DNA from: a virus
Length of the DNA: 29,102 nucleotides
Virus record (IMG/VR): IMGVR_UViG_3300009436_000073
Coordinates: 1 to 29,102 of that record
Strand: one strand, 5' to 3'
The position numbers and the translations under genes were made by a program. Under the pieces are notes generated by a model. That model saw nothing but the letters and a program-made list of their open reading frames with translations, ran no database searches and had not been told where the DNA came from. Shown piece after piece: positions 738-18,154 of the stretch (within the stretch, counting starts at the first letter, position 1; the number at the start of each line of letters is the position of its first letter).

Positions 738-2309
738 ATGGGAATATTTAGTTACATAGCTGACAGCTTCACTAACCGTGGGGCGTTGGATCTTGTTGGC
801 TCGAAAGATGATGAGAGCATTAATAACGCTCAGTTCTTGGCGGAGAACAAGCCAATAACGCAAGCGTATACGCCGCCGTCTCGAAGCATGGTGGCGCAAG
901 AGTTTGCGGAGCAAACTATGACTGCTCTGCCCCGCACGCCTCAAGAACTAGCTATAGGTGAAATGGGACCGCCTTTGCCTAACCCGCAAACATACCGCGA
1001 TCCAGCGGCTGCAACCCGTGCTTATTACGACAGGTTAGTTGATCAAGAGCGTGCCAGAGAGACAGCCAGAGCGAAGGAGCAGTTGAGTGATCCAATGTTC
1101 CGCTTCAGAGACACTGTAACCGATGTGGCTCGAAACACTATCGGTTTGCCCTTCCATATTATGTCTGGGGGTCAGGCTTTCAATAACGACCCTAGCCGCG
1201 AAGTGCAGTCACGCCATAAAGATCGTCTAAAAGAACTTGATGCGCTCAACGGCACAAATTCTGAACTGTACGATAAGGCTAAAGATAGTCGATTTATTGC
1301 GTTAGAGGCTGCTCGAAATCAAAGATATGTAGCTTCTACTAACCGTTTGAATGCAAACAATCAAAGTTCTTTTTTCAAATCCCCTAACCCTGATTTCTAC
1401 ACACCCGAATCAACCGCAAGGGCACAACGATTGATAGAGCAGGGTCGCCCTCATTCTGAGGCGCATGATGTGCTGAAATTGAAAGACAACATAGTTATGG
1501 CATCGGACGCAAACGGCAGACCTATTATGGTCAACAAAACGGACGGAAGTGTTATTGGTTATGCGACTAACTTTGAAACCGAGCTAAAGCAAAAGGAAAT
1601 GCTGGCTACATCTGAAAACTACACCGCAGCACAAGGTGTGTACCACGCAGACAGACCCCGTATGCAAAGAACAATACGAAGTTTTTCTAGCAAACGAGAT
1701 GATATTGAGAGAGAAGTGAAAGAGGTTATGAGCCTGTTGGAAGGATCAACCCGCGCAATCGACGGTGTTTTGCAGTACATCCCAGGAACTGATGAAAAGA
1801 CGATACAAGGCAAGTTAGAAATGCTTGTGGCAAACATCGGTTTTGCCGAAATACAGAAGATGCGAGAGCAATCCAAAAGTGGCGGTGCTTTAGGTCAGGT
1901 GACTGAAAAAGAACTTGCTTTTTTACAAGCAGTTTTGAATAGACTTTCACTGTTCGATAAGCCAGAAATTTTGCGAGAGAATCTAGGAATTGTTTTAGAA
2001 AGTTATGACGAATCTGTCACTTCTTTGGAATATAACCTCTCAGAAATGGACGGTCTATACGGAAGTAGCGCAACCAACCGTAAGGTATTCAACCCGAACA
2101 TAGCCTACGACGGAAACACTGCGTTTGAAGCTTTGTTAGAAGATCCTAAATTCGAAGACTCTTCTGCTAACAGTGCGGGGCCGCAAAGCGGTGCGCTCAC
2201 CGAAACGCCAGCAGCACCAAATACGGCGGCATCCCCGTTGAATGAAGAGGAGCAAGCTGAGTTAGAAATGCTAAGGCGTAACCGCGACGAAAGACAGGCG
2301 GCTAACTGA
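738..2309 (+). CDS. Probable internal virion protein (523 aa)
   Basis: I do not recognise a named family with certainty. The protein is soluble-looking, 523 residues, with helical charged segments. Around residues 375-395 it carries MREQSKSGGALGQVTEKEL, a motif of the kind seen in many phage virion or internal proteins (hydrophobic-R-E-x-S-K-x-G-G-A-L-G-x-V-[ST]). The C-terminus is Glu/Arg-rich (about residues 490-523). A purine-rich GAGAAAAG precedes the ATG. Its stop TGA overlaps the ATG of the next gene by one base, which indicates translational coupling. Position after the Q/N-rich virion gene and before two more virion-like genes suggests an internal or ejected protein; this is inference. 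Confidence 0.75.
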   Translation: MGIFSYIADSFTNRGALDLVGSKDDESINNAQFLAENKPITQAYTPPSRSMVAQEFAEQTMTALPRTPQELAIGEMGPPLPNPQTYRDPAAATRAYYDRLVDQERARETARAKEQLSDPMFRFRDTVTDVARNTIGLPFHIMSGGQAFNNDPSREVQSRHKDRLKELDALNGTNSELYDKAKDSRFIALEAARNQRYVASTNRLNANNQSSFFKSPNPDFYTPESTARAQRLIEQGRPHSEAHDVLKLKDNIVMASDANGRPIMVNKTDGSVIGYATNFETELKQKEMLATSENYTAAQGVYHADRPRMQRTIRSFSSKRDDIEREVKEVMSLLEGSTRAIDGVLQYIPGTDEKTIQGKLEMLVANIGFAEIQKMREQSKSGGALGQVTEKELAFLQAVLNRLSLFDKPEILRENLGIVLESYDESVTSLEYNLSEMDGLYGSSATNRKVFNPNIAYDGNTAFEALLEDPKFEDSSANSAGPQSGALTETPAAPNTAASPLNEEEQAELEMLRRNRDERQAAN

Positions 2310-3865
2310 TGGATATATCTGAAATAAGAGACAACATCCGAATAGCGGAGCTAGAACGAAACCCTTCTAACGAGCTAAAGTTTCGTCGGATGCTGAGAGA
2401 CGCGGAAGAAACTGCCGCGTCCGCTAACGAAGGCGTGGATTTTGACCTAGGCACAATGGTTAGCAACATACCATCAAGCCTCTACAACGTGGCGGCAGAT
2501 ACGGCGCAAGCTGTGATGAACCCAATAGACACACTTTATGCTGCGGGTTCTTTGGCTAAGAGCGGTTTGCACAATGCTGCTCAAGAAGTTAACGAGTTTA
2601 TTGGGCCAGAAAAAACGGCTGCTATAAACAGATTTGGCAATGCTATTGGTTTGCAAGAAAGGCCCACTACCGTAGAAGGGTTAGAGGGTTATCAAATTAA
2701 AGGGCAAGGCGAAGGTGAAGCGTTTGCCGGTGCGCTTGATGACCGATATGGTTCTGTTGATAACGCTAAAACAACATTGATGGAAGACCCTGCGGGAATG
2801 TTGCTTGATGTAGCCAGTTTGGTTTCAGGAGCCGGTGCGGGAGCTAAAGCTGGCTTAAAATCCGCTGGATTAGACACACAATTAGCAGACTCCGTGATTA
2901 ATGCCGGTACTAGCTTATCCCCGTTAAGCGGTTCAGTCCGAAGACCAACAGCGGTTGTGGAGGAGCTTATGGGTCAGCCTTTGTCGCGTAAGCTATACCA
3001 AAGCGCGATGAAGCCGAGCACAACTTTGCCTGAAGCAGAAAGGGCTAGACTGCTTGACGCTGGATTAGAAGTTGGTGCCACACCAACAAAAAGAAGTTCG
3101 GAAAAGGTGCAAGGTAAGAAAGAAAAGCTAGGCGCGGCTATTGGTGCGGCAGAAGGCGCGTTGACTCAGAAAGACATTGAAATACCTTCAAACAAACTAT
3201 TTACCTATGTCGATGAGGTGGAAAAAGATTTCATTCCTCTCAACCCTAACGCTAAAAGCAACATGGCAAAAATTGATAAAGTTGTCGAGGATATGATGGA
3301 CGGCATTTTTTATGCCGGTGGTCGGCTTACGCCTCAAGACGTAGCAAAAATAAAACGAAACATCTATCAGACTGTGAGCTACGACAAAAAGCTGGGCGAC
3401 AACAGAAAGATAGACGATGTACAAGAAGCCACTTTAAAAGCCATAGCGAAAGCAGCTAAAGAGCAGTTAGAGATACTCGACCCCCAACTGGCTAAAATCA
3501 ATGCTGCCTACGGGAAGGTTTCCGAAGTGCAACGAAAAATACAAAATCCAGCCGCTGCCAGAATTGGAAACAGAGACTTAGTTGGGATCGGTGCTCCACT
3601 TAAAATAGGCGCGGGTGCAGCAACTGGAGGAGGCCCAGGGGCAATACTTGGTGCTCTCCAAGGAGTGATAGACGCGCCAACTGTGAAGTCTAATTTAGCA
3701 ATACTTACAAACCGAACAGGAAAATTGCTCCGCGACCCAACGTACCAAAAGTTGGAAATTGCTGCGGGGCAGGGTGGACGGCTTGAGGAAGAAGCGTTGA
3801 GCCAGTTTGATAAAGATATGAATGCCTTGATGGGCGGTGTGTTAGACACAAGGAAGGTCAAGTAA
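2309..3865 (+). CDS. Probable virion or ejection protein (518 aa)
   Basis: No firm family assignment. It has helical N-terminal and central regions. Residues about 165-190 and 425-450 are Gly/Ala-rich hydrophobic stretches (for example LVSGAGAGAKAGLKSAG and GAATGGGPGAILGALQG) that could insert into or cross a membrane, as ejection proteins of podoviruses do. The middle, residues 240-410, is rich in Lys and Glu and probably coiled-coil. The last 19 residues, FDKDMNALMGGVLDTRKVK, closely match the last 19 of the next gene product. ATG overlaps the previous stop by one base, and its own stop overlaps the next ATG, so three genes are coupled. Injection or internal virion role is inferred from hydrophobic stretches and context. 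Confidence 0.72.
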   Translation: MDISEIRDNIRIAELERNPSNELKFRRMLRDAEETAASANEGVDFDLGTMVSNIPSSLYNVAADTAQAVMNPIDTLYAAGSLAKSGLHNAAQEVNEFIGPEKTAAINRFGNAIGLQERPTTVEGLEGYQIKGQGEGEAFAGALDDRYGSVDNAKTTLMEDPAGMLLDVASLVSGAGAGAKAGLKSAGLDTQLADSVINAGTSLSPLSGSVRRPTAVVEELMGQPLSRKLYQSAMKPSTTLPEAERARLLDAGLEVGATPTKRSSEKVQGKKEKLGAAIGAAEGALTQKDIEIPSNKLFTYVDEVEKDFIPLNPNAKSNMAKIDKVVEDMMDGIFYAGGRLTPQDVAKIKRNIYQTVSYDKKLGDNRKIDDVQEATLKAIAKAAKEQLEILDPQLAKINAAYGKVSEVQRKIQNPAAARIGNRDLVGIGAPLKIGAGAATGGGPGAILGALQGVIDAPTVKSNLAILTNRTGKLLRDPTYQKLEIAAGQGGRLEEEALSQFDKDMNALMGGVLDTRKVK

Positions 3866-8688: not shown

Positions 8689-8949
8689 CTAAAATAATAA
8701 TTTTCCTTGGGCTACGTTATCCACGACATAAACGTGGAAGCCATGTTCTTTCAATCGTTTATGAATTGCGTGTTGGTATGGAGTGGGTCTTTTGCCTGGG
8801 GCTTTGAACTCGATCATCAAGCATTCGCCATCGCGGAAATAAATCATGTCTGGCACACCGCGCTGAGAGGGAGAAGTCCATTTGAACGCCAACCATCCTT
8901 CCCCTCTGGCGTAGCTGTTGACAGTCTGCTCGACGTTGGACTCTCTCAC
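8689..8949 (-). CDS. VRR-NUC domain nuclease
   Basis: An 86-residue stand-alone VRR-NUC protein of the PD-(D/E)XK fold. The active-site pattern is visible: an early Glu in ESNVEQ, SQRGVPDMI with the catalytic Asp, MIEFKAPGK with the E-x-K pair, and PYQHAIHKRLKEHGFHVYVVD. Such phage proteins cut branched or structured DNA during replication and recombination and commonly sit beside an SNF2 helicase. The start is GTG overlapping the polymerase stop by four bases (GTGA), so it is translationally coupled to the polymerase gene. Confidence 0.93.
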   Translation of the reverse strand: MRESNVEQTVNSYARGEGWLAFKWTSPSQRGVPDMIYFRDGECLMIEFKAPGKRPTPYQHAIHKRLKEHGFHVYVVDNVAQGKLLF

Positions 8950-10415
8950 TTCCGGTATCTCTCCGACTCATAGCCCTCAACGTCCACGGGTAAACCCCTA
9001 GCCCATGACGGCAGCTTGCACATTAAAGAGTTAAATTCGTCTAACGATCCAAAATCTTTGGGTACGTCCGCGACAATTTCGTCATGCACAGTGAGCACAA
9101 CGGGGTAGCCAGCGTTTTCAATATTTAGTACCGACTGCGCCAACAGATCTCTAGCAACCGCTTGAGTGATGCTCTGCACAAGCGAACCGCCGTAGCTGTC
9201 TATCTGACCCCATCGGTGCGTGTGATTGTTGATGCCTTCGTAGATTAGCTTTTCACCGTATGCGCCGTCAGTCAGTGAGGCTCTGGGGAATGAAAGTATT
9301 CGTTTCGATGGCAGCTTGAAGAGAAGGTCGCTTTCAACAAATTTAAACGATCCACAACGGGTATCCTGCTCAGTGCCGTAGCGCACCGCGTTCATCGCTG
9401 CGCGTTCGACTTCGTTCCACAACCTAACTATCGGCTTGTTGGCTGCACGCCAATCGTCTCTTATCTTGATGGCACTAGGTTCATCCACGTTAGTACCGTA
9501 GTTCTCTGACATTTTTTGGAAGGCGCGAACACCACCCTGATAGGAAAGTGCTAGGCTTGCTACTTTTCCTCGAAATCGTTGATCCTTGTCCACATCGTCG
9601 TAGTCGCAACCCTCCATTGCTGCCGCTGTAACTTTGTACAGATCAAGACCTTCTCGAAATGATCGCAACACCGTGTCATGCCCTGCAAGCCAAGCAATGA
9701 CCCGTGCTTCGATGGCGCTGTAGTCGCTAACTATAAGCCTGTTACCTTCACTGGCAATCAACATTCCCCGCAAACAACTGGACAGTGCCTCCATCGGTTC
9801 GCATGGAAAGAGTGACGGATCTCTGTGTTTGAATAGGTCGATGACTGCGTCAACGTCATCGACTGTTGGGCGCGGTAAGTTTTGAGGTTGGAAGTGACGG
9901 CCTGTCCACCGCCCTGTGGCAGCGCCACAATAAATCATGCTGCCATGCGCTCTGCCATCGCGGCCCAAACAAGACAACATAGCTTGATACTTCTTCGTGC
10001 TACTGCGCGACAGCGCCTGTCTGATTTGCAGAAACCGCTCAACCTTTGGAGGGCAAAAACCCTCTAACGCGCAAACAACAGCAGCTTTGTCGTAGCTTTC
10101 CATCGACACACCTTGGCGGTTAATCCAATCCAGAGCCTTTGCGCGGCTGCTGGTTGATGACATCTCGCCATCGGTAAGATCAAACACTTCGGCGTTTAGC
10201 TTTTGCTCTACGTCCGCGATGATCGCCAACGCATGTTCAATGTTCTCTTTATCTAAACGCACACCCCGCCAGTTAATCTTCTGGTCAAGCTCCCATATTT
10301 GGCGCTCAGTCCCGCGCAGATCGCGCAGACGTTTTCGTATTTCGCTCTCTGCAACAACGTCCTGTTCACAGTAGTCGTACATTTCCTTTAGCAGTTCTGG
10401 ATCTCTATTTCGCAC
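8946..10415 (-). CDS. Family A DNA polymerase, polymerase part
   Basis: 489 residues with all polymerase motifs of the DNA polymerase I family: motif A IVSDYSAIEARV (D231), motif B RFRGKVASLALSYQGG (R280, K284, Y292) and motif C LTVHDEIVAD (H444, D445, E446). Near the N-terminus, YCEQD (Y15, D19) is the Exo III motif of a 3'-5' proofreading domain whose Exo I and II motifs are encoded by the preceding, differently framed ORF. The start GTG has AAGGG 7 bases upstream, so separate translation is possible. A TAA lies four codons upstream in this frame. Either a +1 frameshift joins the two parts, or the gene is really split, or a base is wrong in the assembly. Confidence 0.93.
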   Translation of the reverse strand: MRNRDPELLKEMYDYCEQDVVAESEIRKRLRDLRGTERQIWELDQKINWRGVRLDKENIEHALAIIADVEQKLNAEVFDLTDGEMSSTSSRAKALDWINRQGVSMESYDKAAVVCALEGFCPPKVERFLQIRQALSRSSTKKYQAMLSCLGRDGRAHGSMIYCGAATGRWTGRHFQPQNLPRPTVDDVDAVIDLFKHRDPSLFPCEPMEALSSCLRGMLIASEGNRLIVSDYSAIEARVIAWLAGHDTVLRSFREGLDLYKVTAAAMEGCDYDDVDKDQRFRGKVASLALSYQGGVRAFQKMSENYGTNVDEPSAIKIRDDWRAANKPIVRLWNEVERAAMNAVRYGTEQDTRCGSFKFVESDLLFKLPSKRILSFPRASLTDGAYGEKLIYEGINNHTHRWGQIDSYGGSLVQSITQAVARDLLAQSVLNIENAGYPVVLTVHDEIVADVPKDFGSLDEFNSLMCKLPSWARGLPVDVEGYESERYRK

Positions 10416-10845
10416 GTTTGGCCCTTACTTTTTGTGGTTTACACAACCGCTGAATTAGCAGCTTTCCGCGCTTATCTTTAGCTTGGTCACCTTCCAGCCC
10501 CAAAAACGTGCCACAGTTACCCAGCGCACGGGGATAAGCCTGTACTGAGCTGAGGGCTGCGGTGTCATTCCACTGCCTAAAAGGGACGCGAGGCCAGTCT
10601 AAAACTAAATTCCAAATACACATCTCAAAGAAACTGTTCCACGCCCATATTTGTGCGCCTTTCTCAATGTAGTGAAAAAGCTGCACGGGGAGGGGATCTC
10701 CCCAAAGCCAAAGCTCTGGGGGTTCCTCGTTGACGCGCCAAGCCAAGCAGATCACTTCCGTGCTAGGGTGGTCTGCGTAGGCATATGCGCCAGCGGAGCG
10801 AATGTCACTTTCGCTGTAAGTCTCAAAGTCGATTGAGATGATCAC
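10405..10845 (-). CDS. DNA polymerase 3'-5' exonuclease part, separate frame
   Basis: 146 residues matching the N-terminal proofreading domain of phage family A polymerases. Exo I is SIDFETY (D6, E8) and Exo II is WNSFFEMCIW (N70, E74). The usual third motif is missing here and is found at the start of the next ORF. The end, LIQRLCKPQKVRAKRAK, stops at a TAG 11 bases into the polymerase ORF. Start GTG overlaps the DUF2815 stop (GTGA). As a lone product the domain would lack one metal-binding Asp, so it is unlikely to be an active exonuclease unless joined to, or complemented by, the polymerase part. Confidence 0.88.
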   Translation of the reverse strand: MIISIDFETYSESDIRSAGAYAYADHPSTEVICLAWRVNEEPPELWLWGDPLPVQLFHYIEKGAQIWAWNSFFEMCIWNLVLDWPRVPFRQWNDTAALSSVQAYPRALGNCGTFLGLEGDQAKDKRGKLLIQRLCKPQKVRAKRAK

Positions 10846-13108: not shown

Positions 13109-15373
13109 ATGTTGGAAGAAATAGGAACGCGGTTAATAGACCGTGGCTATAAAGTCATCCCTATCAAAAAGGGTAAGAAGTTTCCGTGCATAGACGAGTG
13201 GCAAAAAGCCAACGCCACGCATGAGGATCTAGCGCGTTGGTCGCAAGAGTTTCCAGAGAGCGGCATCGGCGTGCTGTGCAAAACCACAATTGCTGTTGAT
13301 GTCGATTGCCGAAACGTAAGTTTAGTGAAGTTGTGCGCAAAGTGGCTTGAAGAGAATGTGGGAATAGCCGCAGCACGCATCGGCAACCAGCCTAAAATGC
13401 TGTTCGCGTATCGCGGAAACCCGCGTAAGAAGATCAAATCCGCTGAGTTTGAATGTCAAGAAGGCAATAAGCACGCCGTCGAGGTGTTAGGTGACGGTCA
13501 GCAGTTTGTCGCCTTCGGAGTGCATCCAGATACACAGAAGCCGTACCGTTGGCTAAAATCATACGCCAGCTTAGATAGTGTGAATCACGATGAACTTCCA
13601 GAATTGACCGAAGACATGGCGCGGAGGTTCGTAGAGTTCTTTGAGCGCAAGGCACGCGAGGCCGGTTGGCAGGAAAGCCGTAAAGGTATGGACAGCAACC
13701 TCAGTGAGTACGACGAATTGCTTGCTCTGCGTCCTAAGTTTGAAGCAGAAGTCGAAGACGTAAGCGAAATGCTAAGCAAAGTCGATCCAGACATCGACCA
13801 CGATCACTGGTTCCGAATCGGGATGGCTCTGCACCACCACTTTGACGGCGATGACGAAGGACTACAGCTTTGGGCTGAATGGTCTGCTGATGGTGAAAAG
13901 TTCAAAGACGGAGAGTGCGAAAAGCGTTGGAACAGTTTCGACAGCAGCGGGAAGGTGCCTGTCACTCTGGCGTATGTGGCATCCCTCGCTAAGAAAGAAG
14001 AGGCCGAAGAGGTCATGCGGGAAAAGGTCGAGGGGGTTTTACCGCATATGCTGGAGAACTGGTCGCTGGTGCTGGTTGAGGGCCATGCACGGGTGGTGCG
14101 AGATGACATATTCCAAGATCGGACAGTCTTGTACGGCTTGGAGGACGTAAGAAAAGAGTTTCAAAACCAACGGGTTATGAGCTATGAGGGCAAAACGCCA
14201 CGGCTAGTCAACCTAGTCGATATGTGGTTAGAGCATGAGGAACGCAAGACATACGCAGCGGGTCTGGCGTTCAGCCCTGACGGCGAGTCAGTAAATCAAT
14301 ACAACCTCTGGCGCGGCTGGTCGGTTGATCCTGTACAGGGAGATGTGCAGCCTTGGCTCGACTTTATAACGTACGTTATTGCGGACGGGAATGTCGCAAA
14401 CGCGAACTGGATTATCGCATGGGCCGCGCAGATGGTTCAGCAGCCGCAGGTCAAAATCGGTATTGGTCTGGTGCTTAGAGGATTGAAGGGCACAGGCAAG
14501 ACCAAATTTGCGGAGTTGCTGGGCTGGCTTGTTAAGAGCCACTTTACCAGTGCCAGTAAGGCTGAACACATCACCGGCAACTTTAACAAGCACCTCCAAG
14601 AGACGTTGCTGCTGGTAGGCGAAGAGGCGTACTGGGCCGGTGCCAAGGCTGCGGAGTCGGCGCTAAAAGACTTGCTGACTGCCAGCCAGATTTTCGTAGA
14701 AAAGAAAGGCGTTGATGGCTACATGGCACCTAACTACACGCGGATCGTTTTCACCAGTAACGATGACTTCGTTGTGCCCGCCACGCTGGATGAGAGAAGG
14801 TTTGCAGTTTTTGATATCAGCGACTGCCGCAAAGAAGACAGCAAATATTTCGAGTCTTTAGATTCTTGGTTTCACAACGGCGGCGGCTCTGCTCTGCTCT
14901 ACTACCTCAAGCACTTTGACCTATCGTCAGTTAACGTGCGAAAGGCACCGCAGACTGCTGCTCTGGACGAACAGAAGTTGGAAAACCTGAGTGGGGTCGA
15001 TGCGTTTTTGTTAGCCAGTTTGCAGAACGCAGAATTCAGAGAGCATAAGATAGCAGGCGAATCGCTTCAGTTTGGTGAAGAGGTCAGCAAGACTCAGCTT
15101 TACGCCATCTACACTTCAAGCGTGAAGGGTAGGTATGAGGCCGTAACCCGTGAAAACAGTTTCTGGAAGGCGCTGCGCAAGACCGGCATATACACGGAGG
15201 AAGTTCACAAGCGTGCCGGTGGTGCGCGGTTCAGGGCGGTGCAGTTAGAAACTTTGAAGAAAGCGCGGAAAAGCTTTGAGGAGTATCTGGGCATAACCGT
15301 TGAGTGGACGGAAGACGATAGGTTAGACCCGTTAGACCCAAGCAACTGGGGCGACGATTTAGTGCCGTTTTAG
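13109..15373 (+). CDS. Primase-helicase (Prim-Pol plus D5/VapE-like helicase)
   Basis: A 754-residue multidomain replication initiator. Residues about 1-180 are a bifunctional primase-polymerase domain: D64 and D66 in AVDVDCRN, E125 in HAVEVLGDGQQ and H139 in FGVHPDT. Residues about 215-300 resemble a primase C-terminal domain (DHDHWFRIGMALHHHF, ending GKVPVTLAYVASLAKK). Residues about 430-600 form an SF3/DUF5906-type helicase with Walker A GLKGTGKT (458-465), Walker B-like LLLVGEEAYW and the Arg-rich sensor LDERRFAVFD. It would unwind and prime phage DNA, probably at the repeat-rich region near 17.7-18.15 kb. GGGGGAG precedes the ATG. Confidence 0.93.
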   Translation: MLEEIGTRLIDRGYKVIPIKKGKKFPCIDEWQKANATHEDLARWSQEFPESGIGVLCKTTIAVDVDCRNVSLVKLCAKWLEENVGIAAARIGNQPKMLFAYRGNPRKKIKSAEFECQEGNKHAVEVLGDGQQFVAFGVHPDTQKPYRWLKSYASLDSVNHDELPELTEDMARRFVEFFERKAREAGWQESRKGMDSNLSEYDELLALRPKFEAEVEDVSEMLSKVDPDIDHDHWFRIGMALHHHFDGDDEGLQLWAEWSADGEKFKDGECEKRWNSFDSSGKVPVTLAYVASLAKKEEAEEVMREKVEGVLPHMLENWSLVLVEGHARVVRDDIFQDRTVLYGLEDVRKEFQNQRVMSYEGKTPRLVNLVDMWLEHEERKTYAAGLAFSPDGESVNQYNLWRGWSVDPVQGDVQPWLDFITYVIADGNVANANWIIAWAAQMVQQPQVKIGIGLVLRGLKGTGKTKFAELLGWLVKSHFTSASKAEHITGNFNKHLQETLLLVGEEAYWAGAKAAESALKDLLTASQIFVEKKGVDGYMAPNYTRIVFTSNDDFVVPATLDERRFAVFDISDCRKEDSKYFESLDSWFHNGGGSALLYYLKHFDLSSVNVRKAPQTAALDEQKLENLSGVDAFLLASLQNAEFREHKIAGESLQFGEEVSKTQLYAIYTSSVKGRYEAVTRENSFWKALRKTGIYTEEVHKRAGGARFRAVQLETLKKARKSFEEYLGITVEWTEDDRLDPLDPSNWGDDLVPF

Positions 15374-15385
15374 TATAATTGAGCA

Positions 15386-15868
15386 ATGAAATCACAAAAA
15401 TGCGTTGTCTGTGGGGAGGACAAGCAAACCAGTCTGTTCTACAGGAGGCCAGACGGTTCCGTTGAGAAAACCTGTAGGAAATGCCGCACCGAAGCAGAGT
15501 TCCGCACACAGCACAACAGTCCTAGAGACTACCTGCGCAACACCGTTGCTAAAGCAAAATACGGAGCCAAGAAGCGCGGTCTTGAGTGGGACATCGACAT
15601 AGAGCGAGTAATGCAAATATGGCAAGAGCAGGACGGGCGCTGCGCCCTGTCCGGTGTGCGGATGCAAGCAGCTAAAGATGGTAAGGGGCGCAAGGGCAAA
15701 GACATGAACGTGTCTCTTGACCGCATAGATCAAGATAAGGGCTACGTTTTTTCTCCTCGAAATGTACAGCTTGTATGTTTGCGCGTAAATCTGATAAAAC
15801 ATGACATGGATGAGCACGATCTTTTTTGGTGGTGTCACAACATCGTCGATAAAAATGTAATGCAGTAA
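15386..15868 (+). CDS. HNH-family endonuclease-like protein
   Basis: 160 residues. An N-terminal zinc ribbon has two CxxC pairs (KCVVCGE and TCRKCR). The C-terminal half has the phage HNH pattern: GRCALSGVRM, VSLDRIDQDKGYV and NVQLVCLRVNLIKHDM, where LDRID and the following Asn form the core. A metal-dependent nuclease acting in DNA processing, or a free-standing homing endonuclease, is likely. It starts 12 bases after the primase-helicase stop with only a weak GAG ribosome site. The base use is like its neighbours. Confidence 0.85.
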   Translation: MKSQKCVVCGEDKQTSLFYRRPDGSVEKTCRKCRTEAEFRTQHNSPRDYLRNTVAKAKYGAKKRGLEWDIDIERVMQIWQEQDGRCALSGVRMQAAKDGKGRKGKDMNVSLDRIDQDKGYVFSPRNVQLVCLRVNLIKHDMDEHDLFWWCHNIVDKNVMQ

Positions 15869-16516: not shown

Positions 16517-16703
16517 TAGGGGGCGCACTTCCTCAACAGGCGAGTAGCAGCGTCAGTTTGTGCGCAAAAAAAAGCTTTTCATAAGCTGGTTTCCTGCGAC
16601 GAGAAATAGAGTAGATGAACATGGTGGCCCCCGAAACATCATATACGCCATCAATCTGCTCAACTGCTACGTTTTATTTCAACAAAAAGTGGTGTATACA
16701 ACA
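16517..16703. other. 187-base intergenic region with operator-like site
   Basis: No convincing gene is seen; an open frame from GTG 16560 merely extends the next gene upstream. It holds an inverted repeat GCGCAC (near 16524) and GTGCGC (near 16560) followed by a run of A, with a 30-base loop that is too long for a standard terminator. At 16680-16692 CAACAAAAAGTGG matches the recurrent dyad with one altered half-site, followed by GTGTATACAAC, a small palindrome ending at the next ATG. Confidence 0.5.
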
Positions 16704-16958
16704 ATGAGTAATTTATTCTATCAAGCTACAAGGGTAGCTGTTGATGGGCGTTTGCTGCGAATTTTCAACGGCTCTTGCTTAAACGGATCGAAGCCTTTGA
16801 GGCTTGATCAAAACGAAGAAGTAGTGAACACGATTGTCGGTGACAGCCGTAGAGGTGATAGCTCAAAGCAAATAGCACGAAAGCTAGGTATCGCACCGAG
16901 CACGGTAACCAAAATAAAAGATATTTTCCGTGAACGCTGGGAAGGTTTTAAGGAGTAA
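16704..16958 (+). CDS. Small HTH protein
   Basis: 84 residues from ATG 16704. The C-terminal half, VVNTIVGDSRRGDSSKQIAR then KLGIAPSTVTKIKDIFRERW, forms a resolvase/sigma-like helix-turn-helix. The N-terminal half is beta-like (YQATRVAVDGRLLRIFNGS). I prefer this start to GTG 16560 because the upstream extension looks non-coding. There is no Shine-Dalgarno sequence, and the ATG is 12 bases after an operator-like dyad, so a leaderless or repressor-controlled message is possible. A transcription regulator, perhaps of middle or late genes, is likely by context. Confidence 0.7.
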   Translation: MSNLFYQATRVAVDGRLLRIFNGSCLNGSKPLRLDQNEEVVNTIVGDSRRGDSSKQIARKLGIAPSTVTKIKDIFRERWEGFKE

Positions 16959-17515: not shown

Positions 17516-17550
17516 ATCTCTCTCGCGTTTGACCCCCACCACCACCTAGA

Positions 17551-17574
17551 CCCCTCTCCTCAGAGGGGTTTTTT
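17551..17574 (+). terminator. Rho-independent terminator of the rightward early unit
   Basis: CCCCTCT (17551-17557), loop CCTC, AGAGGGG (17562-17568) and a TTTTTT run form a standard 7-base-pair terminator, 45 bases after the last rightward gene. Confidence 0.92.
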
Positions 17575-17700: not shown

Positions 17701-17852
17701 TTTTGACGGTAGGCACAGGCTGGGCCAAAAGGCACAGGGTAGGCACGGGTTGAGGGCGTGCGAACCTGTGCCTAACCAATGGCACGCGGAACCCGATCAC
17801 TTTTGACGGTAGGCACGGGTTAGGCCAAAAGGCACAGGGTAGGCACGGGTTG
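17701..17852 (+). repeat. Two 52-base direct repeats at 100-base period
   Basis: 17701-17752 and 17801-17852 differ at only 3 of 52 positions. Each contains three GGCACRGG units and GGCCAAAA, and each is followed by an inverted unit AACCTGTGCC (17763-17772 and 17862-17871), so each copy can fold into a GGCACGGGTT/AACCTGTGCC hairpin. Confidence 0.9.
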
Positions 17853-17928
17853 GATTTTCGCAACCTGTGCCAAGAAATCCCGCTGCGTTGCGGCTTTGCA
17901 GGTAAGGAACGGGTGGTACAGGTTATTA

Positions 17929-17944
17929 CTCTTAATTTTAAGAG
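17929..17944. repeat. AT-rich palindrome at the repeat-array centre
   Basis: CTCTTAA-TT-TTAAGAG is a perfect 7+7 inverted repeat inside a 46-base AT-rich stretch. TAAGAGTA at 17952-17959 can pair with TACTCTTA at 17927-17934 as an alternative. It is a candidate unwinding element. Confidence 0.6.
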
Positions 17945-18038
17945 AATAATATAAGAGTAGTATCTTTAGCCGTTCCGCCGTGCCCGCTGGCCCCGTGCCC
18001 GCACGCGCACACCTGCCCCCCAGCAAACTGGAAAACAA

Positions 18039-18064
18039 CCCGTGCCACCCGTGCCACCCGTGCC
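18039..18064 (-). repeat. Three tandem 9-base units
   Basis: CCCGTGCC occurs at 18039, 18048 and 18057, spaced by a single A each, giving three tandem CCCGTGCCA units. They are exact copies of the array unit in bottom-strand orientation. Spacing of 9 bases is close to one helical turn. Confidence 0.85.
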
Positions 18065-18090
18065 TTCGCTCTAACCCATTGATTTATAAG

Positions 18091-18129
18091 CAAAAAAAGG
18101 CACGGGTTAGCAAAATCCAACCCGTGCCT
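18091..18129 (-). terminator. Terminator of the leftward accessory unit
   Basis: On the bottom strand AGGCACGGGTT (18129-18119), a 10-base loop and AACCCGTGCCT (18108-18098) form a perfect 11-base-pair stem, followed by seven T (18098-18092). It lies 26 bases beyond the last leftward gene. The stem arms are the same sequence as the origin-like repeats. Confidence 0.85.
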
Positions 18130-18154
18130 AACGTGCTCTAGCCTGTGCCCTGCC

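Follow-up and report, generated by a model that had tools for sequence, protein, structure and literature searches.

The window is a 29,102-base phage record from IMG/VR, and the genomes of relatives carrying the array described below are about 39 kb long. Its genes encode an integrase, a repressor, a replication block (helicase, PolA, SSB and exonuclease), a Cro-like protein and a primase-helicase, followed by terminase, portal, scaffold and capsid proteins. Between 6635 and 15373, the order of the replication genes (repressor, helicase, polymerase, SSB, exonuclease, Cro, PrimPol) is the same as in Casjensviridae phages, as seen against Burkholderia phage AH2 (L256), while the capsid protein resembles those of tf/NV1-like podoviruses at 37–44%. 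DNA polymerase A is encoded on the minus strand (8946–10845) in two pieces, one exonuclease-like (146 aa) and one with the polymerase (489 aa), which overlap by 11 nt in a +1 frame. The same split occurs in L006, L008, L014, L015, L026, L109 and L197, and a single ORF of 637–648 aa is found in L024, L079, L094, L073, L107, L118 and L091; the split may reflect a frameshift or two separate chains. Neither of two adjacent ORFs of 518–523 aa (738–3865) has a Pfam match, and a weak PHROG match was obtained for the first alone.

A non-coding stretch between the last rightward and the first leftward gene lies 2.3 kb to the right of the primase-helicase stop codon. This stretch is occupied by an array of short repeats, or iterons, on both strands (17712–18149), which we propose as the replication origin. 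The array comprises 15 exact GGCACRGG units together with degenerate copies, and no protein gene is evident across it. The whole window contains 17 such units against 1.41 expected, and local dinucleotide shuffles (n = 2000) averaged 0.09 units and never exceeded 2, compared with the 15 observed. An earlier note on this DNA, which had described about 15 units within some 440 bases of gene-free DNA and a primase-helicase 2.3 kb away, was accurate on these points, as it was on two 52-base repeats set 100 bases apart. The first copy (17701–17752, plus strand) carries iterons at 17712, 17731 and 17742, a spacing of 19 and 11 bp, and the second (17801–17852, plus strand) carries them at 17812, 17831 and 17842; the copies are 94% identical with a start-to-start distance of 100. 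On the right side, three minus-strand iterons with 9-bp spacing (18039–18064) are kept in relatives.

Between the two sides lies an AT-rich core (17922–17970), the proposed DNA unwinding element, with an A+T content of about 80% at 17926–17965. An AT-rich unwinding region within the array is a feature of the SaPI Rep type, and its AT-richness is kept in relatives. The earlier arrangement of top-strand units to the left and bottom-strand units to the right holds for 12 of the 15 units (Fisher p = 0.04). The left side has six plus and two minus units and the right side one plus and six minus units, so that three lie on the wrong strand and the mirror symmetry is only approximate; in its strict form it is not conserved. 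The array folds strongly as a single strand (z −8.4); since this follows from iterons lying on both strands, it was left out of the evidence. Comparison of the array DNA with cultured phages revealed no similarity, an Rfam scan returned only a sub-threshold miRNA match that was treated as chance, and a tRNA search found none.

Transcripts converge on the array, as the earlier note had stated. A terminator-like hairpin at 17548–17571 (plus strand) ends the rightward transcripts, and an iteron pair at 18098–18129 (minus strand) forms a terminator-like hairpin ending the leftward ones. Two flanking terminators, one of them partly made of iterons, would also suit a transcription-control or insulator region, either an operator array or terminators with repeats, that plays no role in replication. 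We regard this explanation as highly improbable: no promoter-like excess was found at the array, an operator would not usually comprise 15 sites over 440 bp around an AT-rich core and lie where transcripts end, and the iterons co-vary with the winged helix of the primase. A perfect match to the IHF consensus, WATCAANNNNTTR (AATCAATGGGTTA), at 18072–18084 on the minus strand marks a putative bending site. Such perfect matches occur in 16 of 43 arrays against 0.7 expected from shuffles, many of the 16 arrays being related to one another; as only 16 of the 43 have it, the site is not essential. No phage-encoded HU/IHF-like protein was found in the records of seven relatives. GC skew, suggested previously as a check, follows gene direction in this genome and so cannot test the origin idea, and GC3 skew split by gene strand displayed no consistent switch at the array.

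The primase-helicase gene (13109–15373, plus strand) encodes the proposed initiator, which combines a Prim-Pol domain (PF09250), a PriCT-2 region, an SF3-type helicase (DUF5906) and a predicted C-terminal winged helix. The full-length model matches the C-terminal region of NrS-1 PrimPol (6lrb, E = 1.6e-14) and the SaPI5 primase-helicase (7ola, E = 2.8e-8), as well as 7pds. Two features of SaPI-type initiators, the SF3-type helicase (DUF5906, PriCT-2) and the SaPI Rep-like fold (7pds, 7ola), are both present. The winged-helix domain (aa 657–725, codons 15077–15283, plus strand) is the proposed iteron reader, as suggested by the structure model and by co-variation. Its fold matches are all individually weak and mostly winged-helix proteins, including Orc1/Cdc6 on origin DNA; a PDB sequence search with a C-terminal profile gave nothing significant. 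TubR is among these weak matches, and winged-helix-bound repeat arrays are also found at partition sites, which would fit a centromere-like site of a plasmid-like prophage. No ParA/TubZ-like gene was recognised in scans of the window, and the integrase points to chromosomal integration, making a partition site extremely improbable.

Conservation was assessed among close relatives of the phage. The array is kept in all six relatives that have a near-identical primase-helicase and enough downstream DNA (L005, L006, L008, L013, L014 and L015), at a distance of 1.7–2.4 kb from the primase and in differing gene surroundings. Five further close relatives have no array, and their contigs stop less than 1.5 kb after the primase, short of the array position. 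Loss of the array from relatives with the same primase-helicase, which the earlier note had named as evidence against an origin, is thus not seen in any close relative with enough downstream sequence. In four relatives of 38–39 kb, the array site occurs once per contig. A search of the collection with a 15-mer iteron yielded mostly single matches attributable to chance.

Some elements of the array are more variable. The second 52-base copy aligns with the left block common to all relatives, and the duplication itself is restricted to L005 and L014; because it is absent from L006, L008, L013 and L015, it is not essential. The palindrome CTCTTAA-TT-TTAAGAG, earlier placed at the center of the array, does lie inside the AT-rich core at 17929–17944, but the exact palindrome is absent in close relatives, where only AT-richness is retained. 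It was rejected as the functional core for this reason. Reading the array as an origin is supported by its retention while flanking genes were swapped and by the single array per genome in four contigs, and further by the AT-rich core, the enrichment of the IHF consensus and the flanking terminators.

Further loci were gathered by profile searches, and arrays were detected by k-mer counts with thresholds of our own choosing; the iteron consensus is weak for L026, L091, L105 and L085. Distant relatives (about 50% identity) show the same anatomy in the same place with different iterons, approximately ten sites having changed in concert. The iterons found there include CGCACGGG, GTACRRGG, GGTCAAGG, GTTCARGG, CTCACAGG, GTGYCGGG and others, with the general form NNNNNRGG. 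Most of the distant loci with enough downstream DNA carry a two-strand array about 0.5–3.5 kb past the primase. Contig ends explain some of the loci without one, and for L069, whose Tyr at residue 700 predicts TTCAAGG iterons, a direct check confirmed a contig that stops where the array would lie. The window and L024 space their first three iterons identically (19 and 11 bp) despite their different sequences. The origins of L067 and L079 are alike in layout, and their iterons changed together from GTTCAAG to GCACAG. The earlier proposal of a candidate origin is thus supported by an array that is kept in close relatives and an anatomy that is kept with new iterons in more distant ones.

Two additional repeat features were observed at the distant loci. 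Tandem repeats of the ACCGCGACAAA type, with a period of about 14 bp and 6–13 copies, adjoin the array or follow the primase in L018, L019, L020, L022, L024, L106 and L182. In the arrays of L109, L124, L197 and L230, an inverted repeat (AATCCATATG...CATATGGATT), identified by eye, flanks the core and possibly forms a hairpin.

Several cultured phages with primases of only 25–32% identity also have two-strand arrays, namely Burkholderia AH2 (12 copies of AGGTCCGAA), Rhizobium RHph_X2_30, Roseobacter RDJL6, Rhodobacter RcSimone-Hastad (13 copies) and Pectobacterium MA12 (9 copies). These arrays, in phages with a primase of the same family, are analogous to the one in the window and speak for the origin reading. 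Weaker arrays, or arrays seen by eye, are present in Klebsiella KPN N54, Pseudomonas SS2019XI, Mallos and DLP4. No clear array was found in the cultured relatives Ab18, PaTs-2, AAT-1 and Rostov 6, which counts against that reading, and for BSPM4 the examined stretch stopped at the end of the record.

The position of many relatives' arrays, 15–240 bp upstream of terS, raises the question of a pac site, at which the small terminase subunit binds repeats to start packaging. Pac sites are common just upstream of terS. However, terS lies 2.8–3.6 kb away in the window group, behind inserted genes, and in RDJL6 over 3 kb separate the array from the gene annotated as the large terminase. The TerS proteins of L017 and L024 are 82.5% identical yet the iterons differ, those of L016 and L017 share only 69.8%, and those of L094 and L103 share 69% with the same iterons. 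TerS was rejected as the iteron reader, since its identity does not track repeat type, and we judge a pac site to be very unlikely.

Iteron type does follow the winged helix of the primase-helicase. Two sister clades, L018/L024/L106 and L016/L017/L084, are 92–95% identical over aa 1–640 and only 44–46% identical in the winged helix, with DNA identity falling to 50–65% across this domain and recovering after it; their iterons are GGTCAAGG and G(T/C)AC, respectively. Between L016 and L084, whose iterons change from GTAC to GCAC, the primase has 11 differences in 752 residues. Four of these differences (K684R, G688N, C697T and N698H) fall in helix 3, the recognition helix, and in the wing. The winged helix is saturated once identity is under 88%, where pairs with the same and with different iterons show no difference; the link at the level of the domain therefore rests on about three events. 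The earlier link of the array to the 13109–15373 product is supported by this strong co-variation, and an association of the iteron changes with the winged-helix domain is well supported by the sequence comparisons.

A different protein could read the iterons of the origin and recruit the primase-helicase. Candidates would be a small or HTH protein whose gene lies between primase and array, the Cro-like protein and a host factor. In favor of this, L018 and L017 also have different genes in the primase–array interval, and 16560–16958 is HTH-like. On the other hand, L016 and L084 differ in their iterons, yet most of the stretch from primase to array is 88–100% identical outside one divergent block (2932–3171) and a gap, and the amino acid changes of the primase concentrate in the contact surfaces of the winged helix. 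Moreover, the window and L014 have the same iterons, yet blastn finds no similarity between their intervening genes. We consider a separate reader unlikely, and the primase-helicase itself very probably reads the iterons.

At the residue level, aa 691 and 700 of the window protein are the only ones differing in all three sister contrasts (0.15 expected), and residue 700 is the top protein column for iteron base 3 (z 8.0, 25 representatives); the contrasts and the rule for residue 700 were noticed in the same data that scored them. In the window this residue is His700 (codon 15206–15208, plus strand), in the first wing strand. In a tree-aware count, it ties for first among 566 variable columns with a nominal p = 0.004, which fails correction for the 566 columns. 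L075, L197 and L235, with Arg at 700 and GTGCCGGG-type sites, fit the rule; they were examined afterwards and come from clades already seen. As the p-value fails correction and L105 breaks the rule, a single-residue code at position 700 is a hypothesis only. It is conceivable, if on balance somewhat doubtful, that a wing code at iteron base 3 (R-G, Y-T, N-A, H/Q/M-C) lets these phages re-tune all copies of their origin at once, so that it stays separate from the origins of close relatives sharing the cell.

The comparisons demonstrate an array that is conserved, is present once per genome and changes all its iterons together with the winged helix. We consider it highly probable that the array is the phage replication origin, bound by the phage's own primase-helicase through the C-terminal winged helix, with oppositely facing iterons placing helicase rings around a melting AT-rich core. 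Copies of the protein would bind the iterons, residue 700 perhaps directly contacting base 3, and the two opposing iteron sets would load rings on both sides of the core. IHF may assist at the origin. Once the core has melted, the SF3 motor would unwind the DNA and the Prim-Pol domain would then prime synthesis, leaving extension to the phage PolA, SSB and helicase.

With this reading, a family of Prim-Pol phages, found in this analysis chiefly in metagenomes, is assigned an origin and its probable reader; the same goes for several cultured phages, whose arrays carry no annotation in the records examined. No description of these arrays was found in the literature searched, mostly outside subscription journals. 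The natural matched pairs, in which the same enzyme carries a swapped winged helix and swapped iterons, offer a ready experiment on the joint change of an initiator and its 10–15 binding sites. They might also supply replicons for the laboratory that do not interfere with one another.

Among known systems, the AEP-SF3-winged-helix initiators such as pRN1 ORF904 and the BIP-1 type share with the window an AEP primase, an SF3 helicase and a winged helix in one protein, and an origin downstream of the gene. The single generalising paper that we found on these initiators proposed a stem-loop origin and expected stem-loops rather than iterons (PMC4234260). In contrast, the array described here is iteron-based, and no large pRN1-type stem-loop was found right after the primase (15374–15674, folding z −0.9). 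NrS-1 PrimPol has the same domain order and is the closest solved fold for the helicase part (6lrb). Its priming site TTTGGTTA is present in two genome copies and read by a helix-bundle domain (PMC7102993, PMC8718748), unlike an array read by a winged helix. Co-variation of initiator residues with iterons between related viruses is known for the iteron-related domain of geminivirus Rep (PMC10653810), an unrelated rolling-circle initiator, whereas here it concerns the winged helix of a primase-helicase.

P4 alpha combines three activities in a single protein, namely binding of the origin repeats through a winged helix, unwinding and priming (PMC4234260). Its primase is described as Toprim type, in contrast to the archaeo-eukaryotic Prim-Pol found here. 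Phage P4 replication also needs a second site, crr, whereas four relatives of 38–39 kb have one array per contig. In the staphylococcal pathogenicity islands (SaPIs), Rep is an initiator helicase that loads itself; the short iterons read by its C-terminal domain lie in non-coding DNA downstream of its gene (PMC7581432). The window likewise has an iteron cluster in non-coding DNA near and downstream of the initiator gene, and the SaPI5 Rep, like the protein described here, is a primase-helicase. Differences are that the origin usually lies 0.5–3.5 kb downstream with genes in between, and that it belongs to tailed phages of metagenomes with GGCACRGG-like iterons that switch type within the group. 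In its anatomy the array agrees with the SaPI type in every feature tested and, by analogy, is best read as one that would work like SaPI Rep/ori and P4 alpha/ori.
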